46,571 nt of DNA from Bacteroidaceae bacterium (lineage in GTDB: Bacteria; Bacteroidota; Bacteroidia; Bacteroidales; Bacteroidaceae): the NCBI GenBank assembly GCA_017554605.1, contig JAFZIA010000030.1, positions 1-46,571 of the forward strand. The letters are read 5' to 3'. Numbering within the stretch: position 1 is the first letter of the stretch; each line of letters opens with the position of its first letter. Below, piece after piece: positions 4,680 through 46,571 of this stretch. Made by a program: the position numbers and the translations under genes. The notes beneath the pieces are model-generated. The model saw only the letters and a list, made by a program, of their open reading frames with translations, had not been told where the DNA came from and made no database searches.

Positions 4680-5705
4680 ATGGCAAAAGTCAATCTTCTT
4701 ACAATACATTTCGGCAACAGCTATGGTGCAGTTATGCAAACATACGCAACCTGCAAGCTGCTCGAAGAAGCTGGTCACACAGTGACTGTTATCAATTTAA
4801 CTGTACCCCAACGCAAAATGAGCAAGCTTTCGCCACAGTATATTAAAAGTGCCATACGCGAATACACATTCAATAAATTCAAGAAAAAGTGTTTCTCGCC
4901 TATGACACAAGAGGGTTATTCCATTAACGAATGCAGGATTCCCGATGCCGATTATACAGTTGTCGGCAGTGACCAGGTTTGGAATCGCGACATCACAGGG
5001 CGCTTTGGTAAAGCATTCTTCCTCGATTTTGTCAACAGCAAGCAAAAAAGAATCTCCTTGTCATCGAGCTTCGGTAAGAGCGTATGGAACGAAGACAAGG
5101 GATATACCGAGGAGGTAAAACAAGAACTGGAAAAATTTGCAGCCCTCTCGGTTCGTGAACATACCGCAGTAGACATTCTGCGCGATACATTTGGGCTCGA
5201 ATCGGTACAACTGCTCGACCCCACGCTTGGCTATGGTAAATTCGAGCATCTCATTCTTAACAACAAACCCAGCGAGCAAATATTCCCATTCCTTCTGAAC
5301 ACAAGCAAAGAGGCCATAAAACGTGCCGAACTGATTGCAAAAGAGACTGCTACACCCATTTTCAAGCACAGTTCGTACACCGCGACATTCGCAAACTCGC
5401 CACGTCACTGGCTCACGAACATACATAATGCTAAGTTTGTTATAACAGACTCATTCCACGGATTGGCACTAAGCATCATATACCACAAGAATTTCTTTGT
5501 ATTCTGTGCCGACCCCAAGAAGTTTACACGCCTGCAATCACTTCTACAACTAATAGGACACGAAGAGAGATTTGTAACAAGCGAAGAGGACTTCCTCAAA
5601 CGTAAGGAGCAACTGATGCAGCCCATCGACTATACACGCGTCGATGCAATATTAAAGAAAGAACAGGAGAAATATAGAGAATTTATAAGAAAAAACATAT
5701 TCTGA
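4680..5705 (+). CDS. Polysaccharide pyruvyl transferase family protein
   Basis: Likely adds a pyruvate ketal from phosphoenolpyruvate to a sugar of the growing polysaccharide, giving negative charge. The 341-aa cytoplasmic protein has the family hallmarks: an N-terminal FGNSYGAVMQTYA motif, VVGSDQVWN near residue 97, the SLSSSFG segment, SVREH near residue 155, and the C-terminal ITDSFHGLALSIIY motif near residue 255. Its stop overlaps the start of the next acyltransferase gene (TGATG), which indicates translational coupling. Some members of this family sit on F420 or nitroreductase-type operons, but the capsule context supports pyruvylation here. Confidence 0.85.
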   Translation: MAKVNLLTIHFGNSYGAVMQTYATCKLLEEAGHTVTVINLTVPQRKMSKLSPQYIKSAIREYTFNKFKKKCFSPMTQEGYSINECRIPDADYTVVGSDQVWNRDITGRFGKAFFLDFVNSKQKRISLSSSFGKSVWNEDKGYTEEVKQELEKFAALSVREHTAVDILRDTFGLESVQLLDPTLGYGKFEHLILNNKPSEQIFPFLLNTSKEAIKRAELIAKETATPIFKHSSYTATFANSPRHWLTNIHNAKFVITDSFHGLALSIIYHKNFFVFCADPKKFTRLQSLLQLIGHEERFVTSEEDFLKRKEQLMQPIDYTRVDAILKKEQEKYREFIRKNIF

Positions 5706-37965: not shown

Positions 37966-40176
37966 CTATAAATTCAAGTGCAGCGACACACCCATCTGCC
38001 TGGGCTTGCCCTGCGCAAAAAAATCGTTGCCTATGGAGCGGAAGTAAAAGGTATTGTACCTCTCGTCGAGGATATTCTTTGCCCACAGCGATGCACCGAA
38101 GTGCCCCTTTTCCCACGACAGAGAGGCCGACCACAACCCATAGAAGGCCTGTGTGAGGCTATTCTGCTCATTCCAATATATGCGTCCTATGCCGTTCCAG
38201 CCCACATTGAGAATGAGGAAATTGGCAAAGCTGCGCGGCACGGGCAGCGAATATGCCACATTGGCCGAGAGTGTCTCGCGCGGCGCCAAAGGCAGCCTGT
38301 TGCCCGAGTAGTCGTTCTCGCCGTCGCAGTACTCGTCGAATGTGGCGCAAGCATAGCCATAGGAAGCATCGAGTTGCAGAGCATTCATCTTGTACTGCAG
38401 CGACAGTTCGGCACCGTAGCTGTGCGAGCGTCCCGCATTGGACATCAAACGTCCCGTTGACTCACCCTTAGGGAAGACCGTCAGTTGCTGGTTGCGGCAA
38501 TCTATGTAGAAGAGCGCAGCCGAAAGGGAGAGTGCCCCGTCGGCAAAGGGCGAGAAACGGGCTCCAAGCTCGTAGTTCCAGGCTGTCTCGGGGTGATACA
38601 CCGTAGCCGAGGCATCGCCCTCATTGGGATTACGCATAATATCGTCGATAATCTTCTGCTTGAGAATATCGGAGAAGAGCTGGGTGTTGAATCCGCCCGC
38701 CTTGAATCCCTTGCTCACCGTAGCATAGATATTGCCCCTGCTATGATTGTAGGCAACAGAAAGGCGCGGCAGGAGCTCAAGCGCATCGGCCGTATCCTTT
38801 CCTTTGAAAGACGAGGGCAAGTGAATGAACTGTGCAGAGCTCCGCTTGTATTTGTAGTATATGTCGGCGTAGCTGTCATAATCCATCGACGCACGCTCAT
38901 AGTCGAGCCGCACACCCGCCTTCACAGAAAGCTGCCCCAGATGCAGCGCCGCCTCGCCATAGAGTGCCGCACCCGCCGTGGGTATTGTGAATTTGTCCTC
39001 GATGGTAAATGAGGGGTCGCGGAACTCAAGGCTGTAGTCGTCGCCCGCAGGGTGGAAAAAGTTCTCATTGGCATTCTTTATAATGAGATTGTCAATGCCA
39101 TACTGTTTGAAGAGCACGGGAGCCGAGAGCTTCAGATGCTTGTAGAAAGCCATCGCCCCCACAATCCAGGAGAGTTTCCTGCCCTGCACCGACTTTGCCA
39201 CAAGCTCCTGCGTAAAAGCACTCTCCCGCTGGTACTGCCCCATAGAGAAATAGTCGAGCGGAAGAAAATCATTGTCTATCCTCATACGGTCGCCCAGAAA
39301 CTGGTAGCCTGTTGTTGAAGAGAGGGTAAAACCGTCGAAATACTTTTTTATCACAAGCCCGTCGCTCACGTTGAAGCGGCGATAGGTGCAGGCATCGTTG
39401 TATGCAACGGGAAGCAGCACCCCCGACTCTCTGTCGTAGGAACGGTAGCCCCAGCCACCTTCGTCGACAAAGCCCACTGTAAGGGCATTGTCCACGCTCC
39501 ACCCGTCGGCAGGCAGCCACTGAACCCTCAGGCGCACAGCCCCATTGCTGCCGCCGTCGCACTCCTCGCCCCTCTCGCGGTTAAGGAAGAAGCCGTCGGT
39601 GCGGGCATAGTAGAGACTCGCCGACCAACCGAAGCTCCTGCTGGGGGCTGCATAGTGCGAAGCCTTAAGGCGCACGCTGTTCCCCGTACCATACTCCAGC
39701 ATAAGGCGCTTGCCCTGGAACGCAAGCGGCGAGAGCGTGAACAGGCTGATGGCACCGCCCGAAGTGTTACGCCCGTAGAGCGTACTCTGAGCTCCGCGCA
39801 TCAGTTGCACCTTTGAAATGTCGAAAAAGTCAAAATCGTAGCTGTTCTTGTTCATAACAGGCATCTCGTCAACCGACAGCGCCACAACAGGCTGGTCGAT
39901 GCGCGAACCGAAGCCGCGCACATAGATGGACGAGGTCATACGCGAGCCATAATCGGGCTTGTAGTAGTTGGGAGCAAGCGCCGTAAGCTCCTTGAGCGAA
40001 ACTATATGCCGGTTCTCAATATCCACCCTGTTTATGGTGGTGGACGAATACTCCCCTCCCTGCTCCTCGTCAACTTTTATGGACGCTACAATATCCACCC
40101 CCTGCAACACCACAGTGTCGGGACGCTCAAAGAAAGGGAGCGCAAAGAGAGTGACAAACAGAGATATAGCGTTCAT
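37966..40176 (-). CDS. TonB-dependent outer-membrane receptor
   Basis: A 736-aa receptor with a short signal peptide (MNAISLFVTLFALPFFERP). The plug domain spans residues about 40-160: INRVDIENRHIVSLKELTALAPN, YVRGFGSRIDQPVVALSVDEMP, VQLMRGAQSTLYGRNTSGGAI. A 22-strand barrel follows, with typical motifs (SKGFKAGGFNTQ, ELGARFSPFADGAL, LDERYNTFYFRSIGNDF) and ends MGVSLHLNL. It lacks the N-terminal carboxypeptidase-like domain of SusC proteins, and no SusD gene is near, so a siderophore, heme, metal or vitamin is more likely than a glycan. It is divergent from the fasciclin lipoprotein gene. Confidence 0.9.
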   Translation of the reverse strand: MNAISLFVTLFALPFFERPDTVVLQGVDIVASIKVDEEQGGEYSSTTINRVDIENRHIVSLKELTALAPNYYKPDYGSRMTSSIYVRGFGSRIDQPVVALSVDEMPVMNKNSYDFDFFDISKVQLMRGAQSTLYGRNTSGGAISLFTLSPLAFQGKRLMLEYGTGNSVRLKASHYAAPSRSFGWSASLYYARTDGFFLNRERGEECDGGSNGAVRLRVQWLPADGWSVDNALTVGFVDEGGWGYRSYDRESGVLLPVAYNDACTYRRFNVSDGLVIKKYFDGFTLSSTTGYQFLGDRMRIDNDFLPLDYFSMGQYQRESAFTQELVAKSVQGRKLSWIVGAMAFYKHLKLSAPVLFKQYGIDNLIIKNANENFFHPAGDDYSLEFRDPSFTIEDKFTIPTAGAALYGEAALHLGQLSVKAGVRLDYERASMDYDSYADIYYKYKRSSAQFIHLPSSFKGKDTADALELLPRLSVAYNHSRGNIYATVSKGFKAGGFNTQLFSDILKQKIIDDIMRNPNEGDASATVYHPETAWNYELGARFSPFADGALSLSAALFYIDCRNQQLTVFPKGESTGRLMSNAGRSHSYGAELSLQYKMNALQLDASYGYACATFDEYCDGENDYSGNRLPLAPRETLSANVAYSLPVPRSFANFLILNVGWNGIGRIYWNEQNSLTQAFYGLWSASLSWEKGHFGASLWAKNILDERYNTFYFRSIGNDFFAQGKPRQMGVSLHLNL

Positions 40177-40235
40177 TGTAATAGAATTGTCGGGTTATTG
40201 TTCTGCAAGAAAGAGGCCCTGCGATTTTCAGGCTG

Positions 40236-40267
40236 CGAAGTTACCAAAAACAGCACACATACACAAA
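40236..40267 (-). promoter_or_regulatory. Promoter of the TonB-dependent receptor gene
   Basis: On the minus strand TTTG (40267-40264), a 20-nt spacer and TAACTTCG (40243-40236) match the consensus with one mismatch in the -7 box. The leader would be about 55 nt, too short for a known riboswitch. Confidence 0.65.
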
Positions 40268-40471
40268 CCTTAAAAAGTTAAATAATATATAAATTGAAGC
40301 AGAAGCATCATTTATGCACGCGGGCACACAGTGCAGCAACCGCCCTCCCGCAAATCCGCCGCCCGGCAGATACAGCGGGCATTACCTAAAAAGTAACAGG
40401 CAAGAAGTGTGGCAACAAACAATAAAAAAGTCTAAAAAGAGAATATATCCACAAAAAAATAACAGAATATA

Positions 40472-40504
40472 TTTGTGCAATTAGAAACTTATTACTTAAA
40501 TTTG
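40472..40504 (+). promoter_or_regulatory. Promoter of the fasciclin lipoprotein gene
   Basis: TTTG (40472-40475), a 21-nt spacer and TAAATTTG (40497-40504) match the consensus perfectly. The leader is about 80 nt. Confidence 0.8.
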
Positions 40505-40588
40505 CAGTTGCTAACATTTGTTTGGAGTAAACTCTCCAAAAAGCACTTAAAAACAACGGGAATAAATAAATAACTAACAATAGCAGCT

Positions 40589-42655
40589 ATGTTAAAAAAG
40601 ATTTTCAAAGGAGCGATTATCGCCGCAGTAGCGTTATTTGCATCTTGTACCGAAGACATTGACAAGAGCAACCGTTACACATTTACTGAGGAGACTCTCC
40701 AGAGCTACCTTCAGAACCGTCCCGAATTTTCACATCTTGTCGACATTTTCAAAAGAGCGAATATGATGGGAACGCTCGGTACATACGGCGAGCACACCCT
40801 CTTTGCTCCCACCAACGCAGCCATTGAAAGATTCCTCTTCGAGCAGGATTCTATCTGGCAAGCTACAAAAGACACCGAAGAGCCCGTATGGACCGGTATC
40901 ACAAGCCCCTACCTTGAGGAGCTGAGCGACTCAATGGCAAATGTCATTGCAAAATCGCACCTTATCCCCGAGAAATACGAGACAATCGATATGACTTGGG
41001 AGACAATGCCCACACAGAACTACAACAAGCGCTACATCTCGCTGAACACCTCATCGGACAGCAACGGCTACCACATCTACATCGAGAACAAGGCCGAGAT
41101 TGTCATTGGCGACGAGCTCGTTGAGAACGGTGTGATACACATTGTGAGCCACGTGGTTGAGCAGACAACAAACACCCTGTACGAGCACATTGCAAGCTAC
41201 CCCTACTTCTCGATCTTTGCAGAAGCGATAGAGCGCACCGGATACGACCAGACAATGCTCGGTTATGTAGACGAGAGCTACGACCTGCAGTTCGTAGAGG
41301 CTACCCCTTATAGAACATACGAGGGAACAGGATACGCACGTCACCCCCAGCAGAAGCGCGACGGCTACTCGGCGTTCGTACCCTACGACAGCATACTTAT
41401 CTCAAAGTACAACATCAACAATATCGACGACCTTATAGCAAAGGCACAGCAGTGGTACGGCACAGAGGACGCAAACGACTACACAAGTCCCAAGAACGCC
41501 CTCAACAAGCTCGTGGCATATCACCTGCTCGACTGCGACGTACCCTACGACAAGCTCGTCATCTACAAGCTCAATCTGGGCGACAACTTCAAGAGCGAGT
41601 GGGCATATATGGCTGGCTACGACCGTATGGACTACTTTGTAACAAAGAACAACCTTATTATAAAGGCAATGCGTGCGCTCAGCAAGAACGAGAGCAAGAT
41701 TCGCGTCAACCCCAGCAACAGGAACATTCCCATCACCGACGGAATGCAGGACCACATAAACGTCCTTGTTTACAGCCCCAGCGAATTCACAGCCAAGGGA
41801 GGCGACTATGCGGCATTCCTTCCCAACGCATTGAACGGAACAATCCACCCCATCGACGGTCTTTTGATATACAATGTCGAGGAGATGGAGAGAAACGTCC
41901 TCTACGAGCGTATGCGTTTCGACTTTGCGACACTGTTGCCCGAGCTTATGACCAACGCAGTACGTTACACCACAAAGAAAGAGTCGGGAAGTACCTATCA
42001 GGCCGGTAACGGTATGGCAACAGCCGGTGACATCAATATTCCCGACGGATACTGCAAGAACCTCAAGATAAACAACCCCCTTACCCACTTGCACTACTTT
42101 ACACCCTGGGATTGGGGAGTAACACTCAACGGTGACGAGTTCATTGCTAGCGGTCAGTACGACTTCGAGTACCGTCTGCCGCCCGTACCCGCAGGTACAT
42201 ACGAGCTCCGCCTCGGTTACACCGCAACAGAAGTACGTTCAATCACACAGTTCTACGTGCGCAAGGGCAGCGAGAACAAGGCCGAGATTTGCGGTATCCC
42301 CGTCGACCTCAGAATATTTGCTACCGACAGCCGTATCGGTTGGATTAAGGACAGCGAGACAACCGACGACGGCGTTGAGAACGACAAGACTATGCGTAAC
42401 CACGGATATATGAAAGCACCCCTCTCTATGGCCGACTATGTCAACCACAAGGACGGTAACAATATGTCGAGTGCGCGCCACTACAGCGGAGCTATCCGTT
42501 ACATTGTCACAACATCACACTTCGAGGGATACGACAACTGGATACGTATGAAGAACGTGATGGAAGACAACACCAAGGAGGGTATGCACGACTACATCGA
42601 GCTTGTACCCATAGGTATTGTAAATGACGACATCAACCTTGAGGACAGAGAATAA
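40589..42655 (+). CDS. Fasciclin-domain lipoprotein
   Basis: A 688-aa lipoprotein: MLKKIFKGAIIAAVALFASC with the lipidated Cys at residue 20. A first fasciclin (FAS1) domain spans about residues 37-190: LQNRPEFSHLVDIFKRANM, GEHTLFAPTNAAIERFL, and NGVIHIVSHVVEQTTNTLYEHI. A second, more divergent FAS1-like region follows (SIFAEAIERTGYDQTML, AFVPYDSILISK, GTIHPIDGLLIYNVEEM). The C-terminal 200 residues are beta-rich with no recognised family (PAGTYELRLGYTATEVRSITQFYVRKG). FAS1 domains commonly mediate adhesion. The protein is probably exposed on the outer membrane. It is divergent from the TonB receptor and may work with it. Confidence 0.85.
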   Translation: MLKKIFKGAIIAAVALFASCTEDIDKSNRYTFTEETLQSYLQNRPEFSHLVDIFKRANMMGTLGTYGEHTLFAPTNAAIERFLFEQDSIWQATKDTEEPVWTGITSPYLEELSDSMANVIAKSHLIPEKYETIDMTWETMPTQNYNKRYISLNTSSDSNGYHIYIENKAEIVIGDELVENGVIHIVSHVVEQTTNTLYEHIASYPYFSIFAEAIERTGYDQTMLGYVDESYDLQFVEATPYRTYEGTGYARHPQQKRDGYSAFVPYDSILISKYNINNIDDLIAKAQQWYGTEDANDYTSPKNALNKLVAYHLLDCDVPYDKLVIYKLNLGDNFKSEWAYMAGYDRMDYFVTKNNLIIKAMRALSKNESKIRVNPSNRNIPITDGMQDHINVLVYSPSEFTAKGGDYAAFLPNALNGTIHPIDGLLIYNVEEMERNVLYERMRFDFATLLPELMTNAVRYTTKKESGSTYQAGNGMATAGDINIPDGYCKNLKINNPLTHLHYFTPWDWGVTLNGDEFIASGQYDFEYRLPPVPAGTYELRLGYTATEVRSITQFYVRKGSENKAEICGIPVDLRIFATDSRIGWIKDSETTDDGVENDKTMRNHGYMKAPLSMADYVNHKDGNNMSSARHYSGAIRYIVTTSHFEGYDNWIRMKNVMEDNTKEGMHDYIELVPIGIVNDDINLEDRE

Positions 42656-42670
42656 TCACCTCATATATAT

Positions 42671-42713
42671 AAATGAAATAACCTCGCTGACAATGAGCGA
42701 GGTTATTTCATTT
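42671..42713 (+). terminator. Terminator of the fasciclin gene
   Basis: AAATGAAATAACCTCGCT (42671-42688) pairs over 18 bp with 42696-42713 around a GACAATG loop. It lies 16 nt after the stop. The stem ends in ATTT, so part of the T-tract is in the hairpin. Confidence 0.85.
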
Positions 42714-42797
42714 TAACGAACATAAAACAAGAAAGCAGTATATACAATATTAGCGGCAAAGACTCCTTACAGGGCAATAGAGATACACTATAAAAAC

Positions 42798-42824
42798 AAC
42801 GGCCACTCTTTTAAAGCAGCCGTT
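42798..42824 (-). terminator. Terminator of the trpB2-hydrolase operon
   Basis: AACGGC (42798-42803) pairs with GCCGTT (42819-42824). On the minus strand the hairpin is followed by GTTTTTAT. It lies about 25 nt after the hydrolase stop. Confidence 0.7.
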
Positions 42825-42849
42825 ATACATTCCATTACACCCAAACCAA

Positions 42850-43449
42850 TCAAGAATTCTGCACAAGCATATCATTAATGAGTGGCACAAGTACAGTCTT
42901 CACAACAGTATCATTAAGACGATGCTCACCATTGAACCACAGGCAACGCTCCTCGCCATACATACTCGCCATAAGAGGACGAAAATGAACCACTGGGTCC
43001 TTATCGCCAAAAAGCCCTGTAACGAGTTTTTTATCCTCCTCGGTAATACCGTCAAACTGGTTCTTTTCCATCAACTTGAAACGCTCCACAAGAGCCTTGT
43101 CGACACGGAATTCCGTTGCACCGTCGCGTCTCTTCGACGTATATTTGTTACGCCCCATCTTGCCGAAAAGCAGGGAGCGCGACATCTCGAACGAAGGATT
43201 TACAATAATGCGGCGCACACCGCGCAACTGCTGCGTGTACATTCCGCCCATAGACGTTCCAATGACCACTGCGGGGCGCTCCTCATCGACCATACGGTGC
43301 AGGAGCTCCATAGCCTCGAAAGGGTCGACAGGAAGGTCGGGGGCAACCACGCGCCACCCCATAAAATGACGGCGCAATGCCATCACCGTACCCGAGCTGC
43401 CCGACGAGGCAAAGCCGTGTACATACATTATAGTCTTTTTTTCCTCCAT
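42850..43449 (-). CDS. YqiA/UPF0227-like alpha/beta-hydrolase
   Basis: A 199-aa cytoplasmic alpha/beta-hydrolase, probably an esterase. YVHGFASSGSSGT (residues 9-21) is the oxyanion region. GTSMGGMY (near residue 64) holds the nucleophile Ser in a GxSxG motif. LFGDKDPVVHF (near residue 146) holds the acid, and GEHRLND (near residue 174) the histidine. It begins 13 nt after trpB2, so it is the second gene of the attenuated transcript. The substrate is unknown. An esterase controlled by tryptophan supply is unusual and could be incidental. Confidence 0.8.
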   Translation of the reverse strand: MEEKKTIMYVHGFASSGSSGTVMALRRHFMGWRVVAPDLPVDPFEAMELLHRMVDEERPAVVIGTSMGGMYTQQLRGVRRIIVNPSFEMSRSLLFGKMGRNKYTSKRRDGATEFRVDKALVERFKLMEKNQFDGITEEDKKLVTGLFGDKDPVVHFRPLMASMYGEERCLWFNGEHRLNDTVVKTVLVPLINDMLVQNS

Positions 43450-43462
43450 AAGCTATACAGTG

Positions 43463-44818
43463 TCAAAGAGAAGCGACATTCTTTTCAATCTCCTCGTCGC
43501 TTATGGTATAGTTGCCCAAGCTGCCCGAGATATACTGGTCGTAGGCCGACATATCCATAAGGCCGTGGCCCGAGAGACAGAAGAGGATAACCCTCTCCTC
43601 GCCGCTCTCCTTGCAACGCAACGCCTCGTCAATGACAGCAGCAATAGCGTGGCACGACTCAGGCGCAGGAACAATTCCCTCGGCCTTGGCAAACATAAGT
43701 CCAGCCTCAAAAGAGCGCAACTGACTGATGTCCACTGCCTCCATAAGACCGTCCTTAAGGAGCTGCGACACAATCACTCCAGCACCGTGGTAACGCAATC
43801 CTCCCGCGTGGATATTGGCGGGCTTGAACTGGTGACCGAGAGAGAACATAGGCATAAGCGGAGTATAACCCGTCTCATCGCCATAGTCGTAGCAGAATTT
43901 TCCGCGTGTGAGCTTAGGGCACGACTCGGGCTCAGCCGCCACAAAGCGCGTCTTTTTGCCGTCACATATATTATGGCGCATAAAGGGAAAGGCAATACCC
44001 GAGAAATTGCTTCCGCCTCCAAAGCAACCGATTACAACATCGGGGTAGTCGCCCGCCATCTGCAACTGCTTCTCGGCCTCAAGGCCTATTATAGTCTGGT
44101 GCAGGCTCACGTGGCCCATCACAGAGCCAAGCGCATATTTGCAGCCAGGAGTTGTTACAGCCAGCTCCACTGCCTCGGATATTGCAGTACCGAGCGAGCC
44201 CTGATGGTTGGGGTATTTTGTGAGAATATCCTTTCCTGCACGGGTAGACATAGAGGGAGACGGCGTCACCTGAGCACCGAAGGCCTGCATCACGCTGCGT
44301 CGGTAGGGCTTCTGCTCGTAACTTATTTTCACCTGATACACCGCGCACTCCAGCCCGAAGACCTTGGAAGCATACGACAGCGCACAGCCCCACTGTCCCG
44401 CGCCCGTCTCGGTGGTAATGTTGGTACACCCCTCCTGCTTGCAGTAGTAGGCCTGCGGCAGCGCCGAGTTGAGTTTGTGCGACCCCACAGGACTCACGCT
44501 CTCATTCTTGAAATATATACGCGCAGGAGTACCCAGCGCCTCCTCGAGCCCGTATGCACGCACAAGAGGCGTAGAACGGTAATACCGGTACATCTCGAGC
44601 ACTGGCTCAGGAATATCTATCCAACGGTCGGTTGTATTGAGTTCCTGGCGCGCAGCCTCAACCGAGATGAGTTTCGAGAGTTCCTCGACGGTAATAGGCT
44701 CGCGTGTAGCAGGACTGAGCATAGGCTCGGGCTTGACGGCCATATCTGCCTGAATATTGTACCATTGCGTCGGTATCTCCGACTCACTCAAAAAGTAACG
44801 CTTCTGCTTGGTAGACAT
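43463..44818 (-). CDS. trpB2: Tryptophan synthase beta-like enzyme TrpB2
   Basis: PLP enzyme that condenses indole with serine to tryptophan. It is the stand-alone TrpB2 form, usually seen as an indole-salvage enzyme. The 451-aa length is typical, and TrpB1 is about 400. The N-terminal extension ESEIPTQWYNIQADM and RSTPLVRAYGLEE are characteristic. The PLP lysine is in VGSHKLNSAL near residue 112, ETGAGQWGCAL is the acceptor-site loop near residue 138, and GCFGGGSNFSG is the phosphate-binding loop near residue 240. It is the first gene of the transcript and is preceded by a Trp-rich leader peptide and an attenuator. No trpA or other trp genes are in the window. Confidence 0.95.
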   Translation of the reverse strand: MSTKQKRYFLSESEIPTQWYNIQADMAVKPEPMLSPATREPITVEELSKLISVEAARQELNTTDRWIDIPEPVLEMYRYYRSTPLVRAYGLEEALGTPARIYFKNESVSPVGSHKLNSALPQAYYCKQEGCTNITTETGAGQWGCALSYASKVFGLECAVYQVKISYEQKPYRRSVMQAFGAQVTPSPSMSTRAGKDILTKYPNHQGSLGTAISEAVELAVTTPGCKYALGSVMGHVSLHQTIIGLEAEKQLQMAGDYPDVVIGCFGGGSNFSGIAFPFMRHNICDGKKTRFVAAEPESCPKLTRGKFCYDYGDETGYTPLMPMFSLGHQFKPANIHAGGLRYHGAGVIVSQLLKDGLMEAVDISQLRSFEAGLMFAKAEGIVPAPESCHAIAAVIDEALRCKESGEERVILFCLSGHGLMDMSAYDQYISGSLGNYTISDEEIEKNVASL

Positions 44819-44843
44819 AATTTATTGCATTTTAATTATTGAC

Positions 44844-44916
44844 AAAAAAGAGGCTCGCCCCAATCGTGAGACAAGCCTTTTATATTTACGCATATACGCC
44901 GAAAGCCACTCACGAT
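44844..44916 (-). promoter_or_regulatory. Tryptophan attenuator: alternative antiterminator and terminator
   Basis: On the minus strand the terminator pairs 44872-44878 (AGGCTTG) with 44851-44857 (CGAGCCT), followed by CTTTTTTG. The competing antiterminator pairs 44909-44916 (ATCGTGAG) with 44863-44870 (CTCACGAT) over 8 bp. It also pairs 44902-44907 with 44875-44880 in 5 of 6 positions, which takes up the terminator's 5' strand. The antiterminator arm begins just after the leader-peptide stop. A pause hairpin (1:2) is only weakly visible. Confidence 0.85.
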
Positions 44917-44918
44917 AA

Positions 44919-44963
44919 TTACCACGAGCAATGCCACCACCATATATTTGTTGTAAAACTCAT
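44919..44963 (-). CDS. Trp leader peptide of the trpB2 attenuator
   Basis: A 14-codon ORF in the trpB2 leader reads MSFTTNIWWWHCSW and then TAA. Trp occupies codons 8, 9, 10 and 14. AAGG sits immediately before the ATG (AAGGTATG). A short upstream ORF (MCILLLCVDNV) in the same leader ends 3 nt before this ATG. Low charged tRNA-Trp would stall the ribosome on the Trp codons and leave the antiterminator arm free. Its position between a consensus promoter and an intrinsic terminator, 100 nt above trpB2, makes the assignment strong. Confidence 0.9.
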   Translation of the reverse strand: MSFTTNIWWWHCSW

Positions 44964-45012
44964 ACCTTATACATTATCGACGCACAGCAACAATATGCAC
45001 ATCTGTTAGCTG

Positions 45013-45043
45013 CAAAATTATCAATAATTTTATGCAATCCAAA
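45013..45043 (-). promoter_or_regulatory. Consensus promoter of the trpB2 leader transcript
   Basis: On the minus strand TTTG (45043-45040), a 19-nt spacer and TAATTTTG (45020-45013) match the Bacteroidetes consensus exactly. Transcription would start near 45006, giving a leader of about 188 nt that contains the leader peptide and the attenuator. Confidence 0.85.
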
Positions 45044-45057
45044 TAAAAAGAGAAAAA

Positions 45058-45762
45058 TTATTCGAAATAAAAGGAAAGTACTATCATTTTGGCAGAAGCA
45101 CCGCCAAGCGACTCGGTATACTTGAGATAATTCTTGTCGATAAGGTCGCTGCGGTTCCTGTCGAGAATATCGAGTATGCTGAACGAAAATTTCAGTTCGG
45201 GATTAAGTTTGAAGAAAGGAAGGTAAAAATCGCAGCCCAGGCCCACCTCGAACATAAGGTCAAAAGGCTTCAGAAGAACAGGACGCTGCTTTTTCACAGT
45301 GAGGTCGAGCATTGGACTCACGCCCGCTATAATGTAGGGACGGTAGTTATTAAACCTCTCGGCCGTAAACTTAGCCTCAACGGGCAAAGAGATATACGTA
45401 GACTTTATCTGCTGGCGCTCCCTGCTGCCGCTGTTCTGCTCACGAAAGACAACTATCTTGTCGCCGAAATGCATTGTGGGTATGAGGCGCAGCGACAGCA
45501 GGCTGTTTATGCGCAGGTCGGCAAGCACACCTACACTGAATCCCGGGCTGTACGAGACAACGTCGGCATACCACTGCTCCCCCTCGGGAGTCACATAACC
45601 GTTATTCTCGAACTCAATGTCCTGCGCGTGTACACCCACAAAAAAGCCGTAGTGCAGACGGCGATAGTCGATATACGGCTTGTTCTGCACTTTACGTTGC
45701 TGCGCCGTGAGTGTCAGTGCAGGCAGCATCAACAACAATATTATGTAAACGATTTTCCTCAT
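45058..45762 (-). CDS. PorT-like outer-membrane beta-barrel protein
   Basis: A 234-aa exported protein (signal peptide MRKIVYIILLLMLPALTLTA, cleavage before QQRK). It is followed by an eight-strand type small barrel with alternating hydrophobic strands, ending IVLSFYFE. DYRRLHYGFFVGVHAQDIEF near residue 32 and SLLSLRLIPTMHFGDK near residue 88 look like PorT, a membrane component of the type IX secretion system in Bacteroidetes. Length fits PorT (about 240 aa). A general porin-family barrel cannot be excluded. Its stop lies 15 nt before the trpB2 promoter region, so it is a separate unit. Confidence 0.7.
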   Translation of the reverse strand: MRKIVYIILLLMLPALTLTAQQRKVQNKPYIDYRRLHYGFFVGVHAQDIEFENNGYVTPEGEQWYADVVSYSPGFSVGVLADLRINSLLSLRLIPTMHFGDKIVVFREQNSGSRERQQIKSTYISLPVEAKFTAERFNNYRPYIIAGVSPMLDLTVKKQRPVLLKPFDLMFEVGLGCDFYLPFFKLNPELKFSFSILDILDRNRSDLIDKNYLKYTESLGGASAKMIVLSFYFE

Positions 45763-45912
45763 CGGTTATATTAACGCCCATACGCGCCACTTATTGCCAA
45801 TGCAATAGAGAAAATTCAAGAAAAAAGAGCAAAGTACAGTGTTAACAGAAGATAATTCAAATAAATTTATGTTAAATTCGTCTTAAAGAGTAGGCATATA
45901 TATAAAAAGCAG

Positions 45913-45920
45913 TATCTTCG
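45913..45920 (+). promoter_or_regulatory. Candidate -7 box for the ferredoxin gene
   Basis: TATCTTCG differs from TAnnTTTG by one base and lies 33 nt before the ferredoxin ATG. No clear TTTG element is at -33. Confidence 0.45.
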
Positions 45921-45941
45921 CAGCGGATAATTCAAACTTAA

Positions 45942-46121
<180 letters not shown>

Positions 46122-46147
46122 TCAGAAGCATAAACGCTTATCCGAAC

Positions 46148-46186
46148 TAAAGGGGCTTGTGTCATACACTCGTCCCTTTACTTTTT
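46148..46186 (+). terminator. Terminator of the ferredoxin gene
   Basis: TAAAGGG (46148-46154) pairs with CCCTTTA (46174-46180), with an inner GTGT-CAT-ACAC hairpin, followed by CTTTTTT. It lies 27 nt after the stop. Confidence 0.8.
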
Positions 46187-46228
46187 TCCAGATCCATACA
46201 CAAAAGCTACAGACAACCGCATTCCATT

Positions 46229-46324
46229 ATGAAAGAATTCCTGCACATTATAACAAAAAGCATAATACTCACAGTTGTGGGTATTGTGGTGTATCTGCTA
46301 TATATGTACCTGTTCCACTGGTAA
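46229..46324 (+). CDS. Possible 31-aa single-pass membrane protein
   Basis: A short ORF starts MKEFLHIITKS, continues with a hydrophobic helix (IILTVVGIVVYLLYMYLF) and ends HW. The composition is that of a genuine small transmembrane protein, with a charged N-terminus and aromatic C-terminus. It lies after the ferredoxin terminator and has no obvious promoter or strong ribosome-binding site. No family is recognised. Confidence 0.4.
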   Translation: MKEFLHIITKSIILTVVGIVVYLLYMYLFHW

Positions 46325-46437
46325 TTGCGGCTCAGTAGAAATTTAATGTGGGCAATAATTAAAGTCTACATTTATTCAAACATATATTTACACCTTTATA
46401 CTTTGTTGCAATTTTCTACCGCCTATTGTTTTTTTAC

Positions 46438-46463
46438 GTACTTTTCGTGCCGACGAAAAGTAC
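46438..46463. repeat. Perfect 11-bp inverted repeat
   Basis: GTACTTTTCGT (46438-46448) and ACGAAAAGTAC (46453-46463) flank a GCCG loop. A T7 run lies just before it. I recall similar palindromes scattered in Bacteroidetes intergenic DNA, but this is the only copy in the window. A second stem, GCGTGTA/TACACGC, lies at 46485-46510. The rest of the right end, 46325-46571, has no supported gene. Confidence 0.75.
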
Positions 46464-46571
46464 TCAAAAGCCACGAGTAAGCGAGCGTGTAGATGTTTAC
46501 ATATACACGCAGCGAGCGAGAGTGGGTTCGTAAAACAAAGGCTCTGCGCACAGAAAATCTTAACGTAAAAT

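Follow-up and report, generated by a model that had tools for sequence, protein, structure and literature searches.

The window, by which the whole stretch of 46,571 nucleotides analysed here is meant (contig JAFZIA010000030.1 from a Bacteroidaceae bacterium), harbors on its minus strand a stand-alone trpB2 gene, followed after a gap of 13 nt by the gene of a UPF0227/YqiA-like alpha/beta hydrolase, with which it is probably co-transcribed (Table 1). The TrpB2 protein scores 687 bits with NF009057 (cut-off 366) and 580 bits with TIGR01415 (cut-off 518.85). Immediately upstream of trpB2 lies a short leader, itself preceded by porT (NF052311, 45762-45058), whose stop codon is separated from the leader promoter by 15 nt. 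On the opposite strand, a 460-aa open frame (43460-44842, plus strand) runs antisense to the entire trpB2 gene and is probably a by-product of codon use.

The leader observation on the minus strand is real and its anatomy exact. Each of the parts listed in the initial annotation can be found in order, starting with the promoter, TTTG-N19-TAATTTTG, which fits the -33/-7 consensus of Bacteroides and is absent from the output of a sigma-70 promoter scan. The 14-codon leader ORF contains a run of three Trp codons and a fourth Trp codon at 44924-44922. Downstream, the terminator stem has a folding energy of -17.4 kcal/mol, and its T-run stops 26 nt short of the trpB2 start codon. The antiterminator said to overlap the 5' strand of the terminator is also present, since strand 2 is fully complementary to CUCACGAU (44870-44863), a segment within the 5' arm and loop of the terminator. 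A short ATG ORF with three consecutive Trp codons occurs once in the 46.6-kb window, 60 dinucleotide shuffles giving none, and the folding z of the leader is -2.18, an equally good fold being seen in 5 of 200 shuffles; a chance origin of the leader is rejected on these two results.

Table 1. Leader elements and genes at the trpB2 locus of the window.
Feature	Position	Strand	Basis
Promoter -33 element, TTTG	45040..45043	minus	Sequence; motif survey of other leader loci
Promoter -7 element, TAATTTTG	45013..45020	minus	Sequence; motif survey of other leader loci
Match to RF01692 (Bacteroid-trp)	44870..44983	minus	Model 1-131 of 131; 40.9 bits
Leader peptide ORF, MSFTTNIWWWHCSW, with stop TAA	44919..44963	minus	Sequence; 14 codons
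Regulatory Trp codons, TGG TGG TGG	44934..44942	minus	Sequence; invariance of TGGTGG in genus leaders
Strand 1 of the 1:2 hairpin, GCUCGUGGU	44921..44929	minus	Predicted folding with strand 2
Strand 2, AUCGUGAG, partner of strand 1 or of the terminator 5' arm	44909..44916	minus	Folding
Intrinsic terminator, stem-loop	44851..44878	minus	12 pairs, loop of 4; then CTTTTTT
T-run of the terminator	44844..44849	minus	Sequence
trpB2, TrpB-like PLP enzyme, 451 aa	43463..44818	minus	NF009057 and TIGR01415 profiles
UPF0227/YqiA-like alpha/beta hydrolase, 199 aa	42850..43449	minus	PF05728, 48.3 bits

Tryptophan Synthesis in the Genome of the Window

Three proteins of the PALP family can be found in the genome, namely IlvA, TrpB2 and ThrC. 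In this assembly, which is 87.6% complete, no protein scores above the TrpB1 cut-off, and neither TrpC (PF00218) nor TrpA (PF00290) was found with profiles that were positive in 14 of 14 control genomes. The same holds more widely, as TrpB1, TrpC and TrpA are all undetected in each of the 12 genomes having a leader-bearing trpB2 and no TrpB1, among the 24 genomes tested for all three; most of the genomes surveyed are draft metagenome assemblies. Behind the leader stand trpB2 and a hydrolase rather than a full trp operon. This gut Bacteroidales bacterium thus seems to have lost the pathway making tryptophan, and since no TrpB1, TrpA or TrpC was found, its TrpB2 is probably, from sequence, an indole-salvage enzyme.

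By analogy with a relative from B. thetaiotaomicron, the enzyme would make Trp from indole and serine. For the B. thetaiotaomicron TrpB2 (BT_RS23500), which is of the same enzyme kind, Trp formation from indole is supported by cross-feeding of E. coli, a trpA mutant growing better beside the wild type, an effect that the authors credit to indole (PMC11535334). The trpB2 genes at the named Bacteroides loci L070, L104 and L113 have no leader with consecutive Trp codons within 400 nt. Elsewhere in the genome of the window (contig C34, L125, 1904-3355), a protein of the tryptophanase subfamily can be found, with 564 bits for NF009709 (cut-off 285) and scores below every equivalog cut-off for tryptophanase or tyrosine phenol-lyase. 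Among 24 genomes scanned, 11, chiefly from the clade of the window, have PF01212 matches of comparable score.

Conservation of the Leader Within the Genus

A leader ORF with WW or WWW is found at 16 of the 22 trpB2 loci of the genus. Alignment of 14 of these leaders shows that TGGTGG is invariant and that the core of strand 2 lies 20 nt past the last Trp codon in 13 of them and 19 nt past it in the remaining one. Two leaders were left out of this alignment and of the ribosome model described below, namely the divergent leader of G449 (L188) and L198, whose sequence between the Trp run and trpB2 is that of L196 and which was also left out of the terminator/antiterminator folding comparison. The fourth Trp codon is present as annotated but is not a general trait, being shared by the window and its closest relative G730, i.e., by 2 of the 16 trpB2 leaders.

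Regarding the terminator, one is predicted in all 24 trpB2 leaders examined (15 from the genus and 9 from outside, with a permissive choice of the best hairpin; the T-run of L053 is weak), and a stricter scan is positive for 14 of the 16 leaders of the genus. Among the 14 aligned leaders, 6 of the 12 terminator pairs are altered on both sides, and none of 500 shuffles reaches such a number of cells. The antiterminator core is nearly invariant within the genus and therefore gives no covariation signal there, while in the 1:2 hairpin 77.6% of the cells are paired and no excess of covariation was found in these leaders. The promoter pattern TTG-N18..21-TAnnTTTG, expected 0.022 times per 400-nt region in shuffles, precedes 7 of the 16 trpB2 leaders of the genus, the full match being absent at the other 9, as well as 6 of 6 trpB1 leaders of the genus and 7 of 9 leaders outside it. 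The YqiA-like hydrolase gene lies downstream of all 16 leader-bearing trpB2 genes and behind none of the four leaderless ones of the genus with well-scorable downstream ORFs.

Kinship With the Bacteroid-trp RNA Family

Bacteroid-trp (RF01692) was first predicted in silico (PMC2864571), and a later report notes it ahead of the trp operon of Flavobacterium psychrophilum (PMC6414381). The leader of the window matches this model over its full length, and both have a leader ORF rich in Trp codons, then a hairpin and the 5' arm of a terminator. The score lies below the Rfam gathering score of 49, with E = 0.0024 for the whole genome, in which it is the sole match at E ≤ 1. Two other trpB2 leaders of the genus score 39.5 and 34.7 bits, and when 16 loci of the genus were scanned jointly against all Rfam families, RF01692 never reached E = 0.05.

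Within the order, 60 of 295 genomes match RF01692 at E ≤ 0.1, 15 of them above the cut-off. A WW or WWW leader is present at every one of the best 30 loci. The ORF behind it, named from sequence, is trpB1-like or trpE-like at 26 of them; at two others (L008, L025) a trp gene lies further downstream, and at the last two (L016, L032) no ORF was called. By profile, L006 is TrpB1 (TIGR00263, above cut-off) and L034 is TrpE-like (best model TIGR00564, below cut-off). Of 399 genomes in the family, 135 have a match at E ≤ 0.05, 74 of them above the cut-off, and 5 of the 23 matches read in 20 stretches precede trpB2, in four genomes (L158, L159, L166, L167, L173). RF01692 thus stands mostly ahead of the trp operon in Bacteroidales (trpB1-trpE or trpE), whereas the leader of the window precedes a stand-alone trpB2.

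The kinship is reciprocal. A covariance model (R1) built solely from the 14 trpB2 leaders of the genus was run on 75 further leader loci, mostly trp operons, and recovers the leader in 74 of them, with E from 7e-12 to 1.5e-4, the single locus missed being L016, where the leader is cut by a contig end. Over 76 trpB2 neighbourhoods (L035-L037, L039 and L040 left out), R1 matches at E ≤ 0.01 at the window, which belongs to the training set, and at seven others, each with an independently seen WWW leader. The trpB2 leaders of L096 and L109 give no R1 match at this threshold and may have a separate origin. In whole genomes of the genus, the 19 best R1 matches are 15 trpB2 leaders and 4 trpB1 leaders, the known leaders of G449, G660 and G706 being missing from the matches; those ranked 20-27 are all ordinary gene ends, so that among the 27 best of 58 matches (E ≤ 0.05) no leader stands before a gene other than TrpB. 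On sequence grounds, the leader of the window is a divergent relative of the known RF01692 kind, with a mechanism that would be classical.

Probable Attenuation and Its Alternatives

The E. coli trp leader combines tandem Trp codons with alternative antiterminator and terminator structures read by the ribosome, and controls trpEDCBA. The leader of the window shares all of these traits in its layout, but would control a single salvage gene. It is very probable that trpB2 is governed by an attenuator of transcription that acts through the ribosome and belongs to the Bacteroidales trp-leader kind; the hydrolase gene is probably under the same control.

When Trp-tRNA is plentiful, the ribosome would reach the stop codon of the leader and cover strand 2, the terminator would form and trpB2 would be off. 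When tRNA-Trp is uncharged, the ribosome would stall in the Trp run and cover strand 1, leaving strand 2 to pair with the 5' arm of the terminator, so that RNA polymerase would read through into trpB2, whose product would convert indole and serine into Trp. This scheme implies that the promoter would be used, that the leader would respond to tRNA charging and that indole would come from outside, released by neighbouring microbes. In a genome with no detected TrpB1, TrpA or TrpC, control of indole salvage by Trp-tRNA charging is plausible.

Several results argue for this reading. The short ORF has conserved tandem Trp codons, and folding predicts that the antiterminator and the terminator are mutually exclusive and set by the position of the ribosome. 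Pairing between strand 2 and the terminator arm has a mean of -12.64 kcal/mol for partners of the same leader against -9.25 kcal/mol between leader types, and 29 of 5040 permutations (one leader per type) are as good. The antiterminator core differs between leader types with partners that overall fit better within a type; exceptions are several trpB1 leaders and the majority of the Prevotellaceae-like type, whose own pairing is no better than that between types. When nascent RNA was masked as by a ribosome in 14 leaders of the genus, the chance that the antiterminator core forms averaged 0.17 without ribosome and 0.59, 0.83 and 0.86 with the ribosome at the first, second and last Trp codon, respectively; with the ribosome at the stop codon it was 0, almost by construction of the model. 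Without ribosome, the chance is already 0.84 in the leader of the window and at least 0.6 in 3 of the 14 leaders, and the leaders L190 and L192 barely switch. In the cell, the outcome is set by kinetics and coupling. Taken with the homology to trp-operon leaders and with the Trp codons, spacing and helices conserved in the alignment of close relatives, these sequence and folding results uphold the classical trp-attenuator reading of the initial annotation.

The poor switching of some leaders in the ribosome model and the lack of a recognisable promoter at others would suit a relic, brought in together with a trp operon or copied out of one and without regulatory effect on trpB2, the gene being transcribed from elsewhere or through a weak terminator. 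Such a relic is unlikely, because terminator pairing is preserved through double changes and because the Trp run and its spacing of 19-20 nt to strand 2 are kept in all 14 leaders while the intervening sequence drifts. Even less probable is a nascent-peptide arrest of the TnaC kind, sensing free tryptophan and inducing trpB2 when Trp is plentiful. The leader peptide is Trp-rich, and the genome encodes a protein of the tryptophanase subfamily, but an arrest peptide should keep its sequence, whereas conservation here is confined to the Trp run and the RNA strands, the other residues being variable; arrest would also leave the terminator/antiterminator pair and its strict spacing unexplained, and induction by Trp of an enzyme that makes Trp has little sense. 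Finally, T-box or TRAP control is known for Trp genes of other bacteria, but a T-box or some other riboswitch with incidental Trp codons is the most improbable reading of all, and any other Rfam family is rejected, RF01692 being the sole Rfam match in 44700-45100 up to E = 1, T-box models giving no match up to E = 5 in 40000-46571, and the shuffles giving no WWW ORF. Judged from sequence and folding models, ribosome-mediated attenuation would be by far the best mechanism.

The trpRBA operon of Chlamydia trachomatis offers a parallel, in that an indole-dependent Trp auxotroph has a predicted Trp leader ahead of its tryptophan synthase genes (PMC6504234). There, however, TrpR and YtgR also act and TrpB is of the TrpB1 type, with trpA, and firm experimental evidence for the attenuator is described as lacking (PMC6504234).

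One TrpB Gene Behind the Leader per Genome

Among the 44 genomes of the genus, TrpB2 can be found in 21, at 22 loci, and TrpB1 in 6, with a score above the cut-off in five and truncation at a contig end in the other. In each of the 22 genomes with a TrpB gene, exactly one TrpB gene is located behind a Trp leader. This gene is trpB2 in 16 genomes, none of which has TrpB1, and trpB1 in all 6 genomes with TrpB1, five of which also carry a leaderless trpB2. The sixth leaderless trpB2 locus of the genus is a second copy in G730, where the other copy has the leader. No trpE-like ORF follows trpB1 in the four loci examined (G550, G616, G706, G770), the other two being cut by contig ends. As the leaderless copies form one clade in the TrpB2 tree and the exclusivity is largely one split of that tree, the pattern reflects few evolutionary events and not 22. 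Neither TrpB1 nor TrpB2 was seen in 22 of the 44 genomes, many of them incomplete; among the 11 genomes at least 90% complete, TrpB2 occurs in 6 and TrpB1 in none.

A first survey, made with the best 80 of 593 trpB2 relatives, reaches outside the genus, with which it overlaps (L035-L042 correspond to G772, G449, G522, G722, G480, G410, G550 and G616, with identical TrpB2). In 74 of its 81 genomes (L105-L108 and L110-L112 left out of the TrpB1 counts), trpB2 with a leader goes with absence of TrpB1 in 12 and presence in 3, and leaderless trpB2 with absence in 17 and presence in 42 (Fisher p = 0.0006, kinship ignored). Outside the genus the rule does not always hold, since in 17 of the 29 genomes without TrpB1 the 400 nt before trpB2 contain no Trp leader. 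Frames with WW at L045, L046 and L080 are long membrane-protein frames and were not counted as leaders. At these three loci, which have no Trp leader and lie in genomes with no TrpB1, strong terminator-like hairpins (-19.6 to -26.7 kcal/mol) are located some 70 nt upstream of trpB2 and perhaps mark the end of the upstream gene or another control.

While the regulator itself is known, its target is new, namely a gene that stands alone, probably serves indole salvage and occurs in lineages lacking a trp operon, and so is the one-leader-per-genome pattern; neither a Trp leader before trpB2 nor this pattern was found in searches of open-access literature. Attenuators are usually described on whole biosynthetic operons, and here the control would bear on the one remaining Trp-making enzyme, no operon having been found. 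In genomes of gut Bacteroidales, a leader-bearing trpB2 could serve as a marker of indole salvage under regulation, with the prediction that such cells would convert indole into Trp chiefly while their tRNA-Trp is uncharged.

Origin of the trpB2 Leaders

Replacement in place of trpB1 by trpB2 behind one and the same leader is rejected on gene neighbourhoods. In the genus, porT lies upstream in 7 of 7 leader-bearing trpB2 loci examined, and the five leaderless trpB2 loci and four trpB1 loci examined have other neighbours. The trpB2 and trpB1 leaders of the genus share a modest similarity (z about 1.5 to 9, against simple shuffles), which fits moving and copying of the leader alike.

Outside the genus, in a Prevotellaceae-like group (L063, L075, L091), identity between trpB2 leaders and the trpB1 leaders found in the same three genomes is 81-86% over aligned columns (z 10.6-18.1), and all three genomes have TrpB1, TrpC and TrpA. 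Given this closeness to the trpB1 leaders of their own genomes, copying of the leader probably happened on more than one occasion. The leader MKTMKNTYWWWRPLQLSQS of G395 (L173), found before a TrpB2 (TIGR01415) 54% identical to that of the window, closely resembles two trpB1 leaders from Bacteroides (L115, L116). On a TrpB2 tree of 97 rows, the presence of the leader needs at least 8 changes, gains and losses counted alike, of which 5 are forced by well-supported branches. Recurrent copying is the simplest reading. The leader would have become attached to the TrpB gene on which a lineage relies, in at least some lineages through copying of the trpB1 leader.

Altogether, it appears fairly likely that the Trp attenuator of Bacteroidales is a transplantable cassette, which trpB2 has acquired several times, at least in part as a copy of the trp operon leader, with exactly one TrpB gene per genome of the genus behind it, and that auxotrophs have re-used this switch to tie the scavenging of indole from neighbours to the charging of tRNA-Trp. 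A rule open to testing would follow, on how a cis-acting regulator comes to control a new target when bacteria turn auxotrophic.

Copies of the leader can also be found within trp operons. In G566 (L164), and likewise in L163 and L165, the trp operon is split into a trpB-E-G part and a trpD-C-F... part with an unrelated gene between them. Each half has its own, near-identical WWW leader (MFSNKNTYWWWRNSRPEKS and MFLNKNTYWWWRNSRPEKS), in L164 at about 500-650 and 5480-5620. The split operons of L163-L165 represent a second case of leader duplication.
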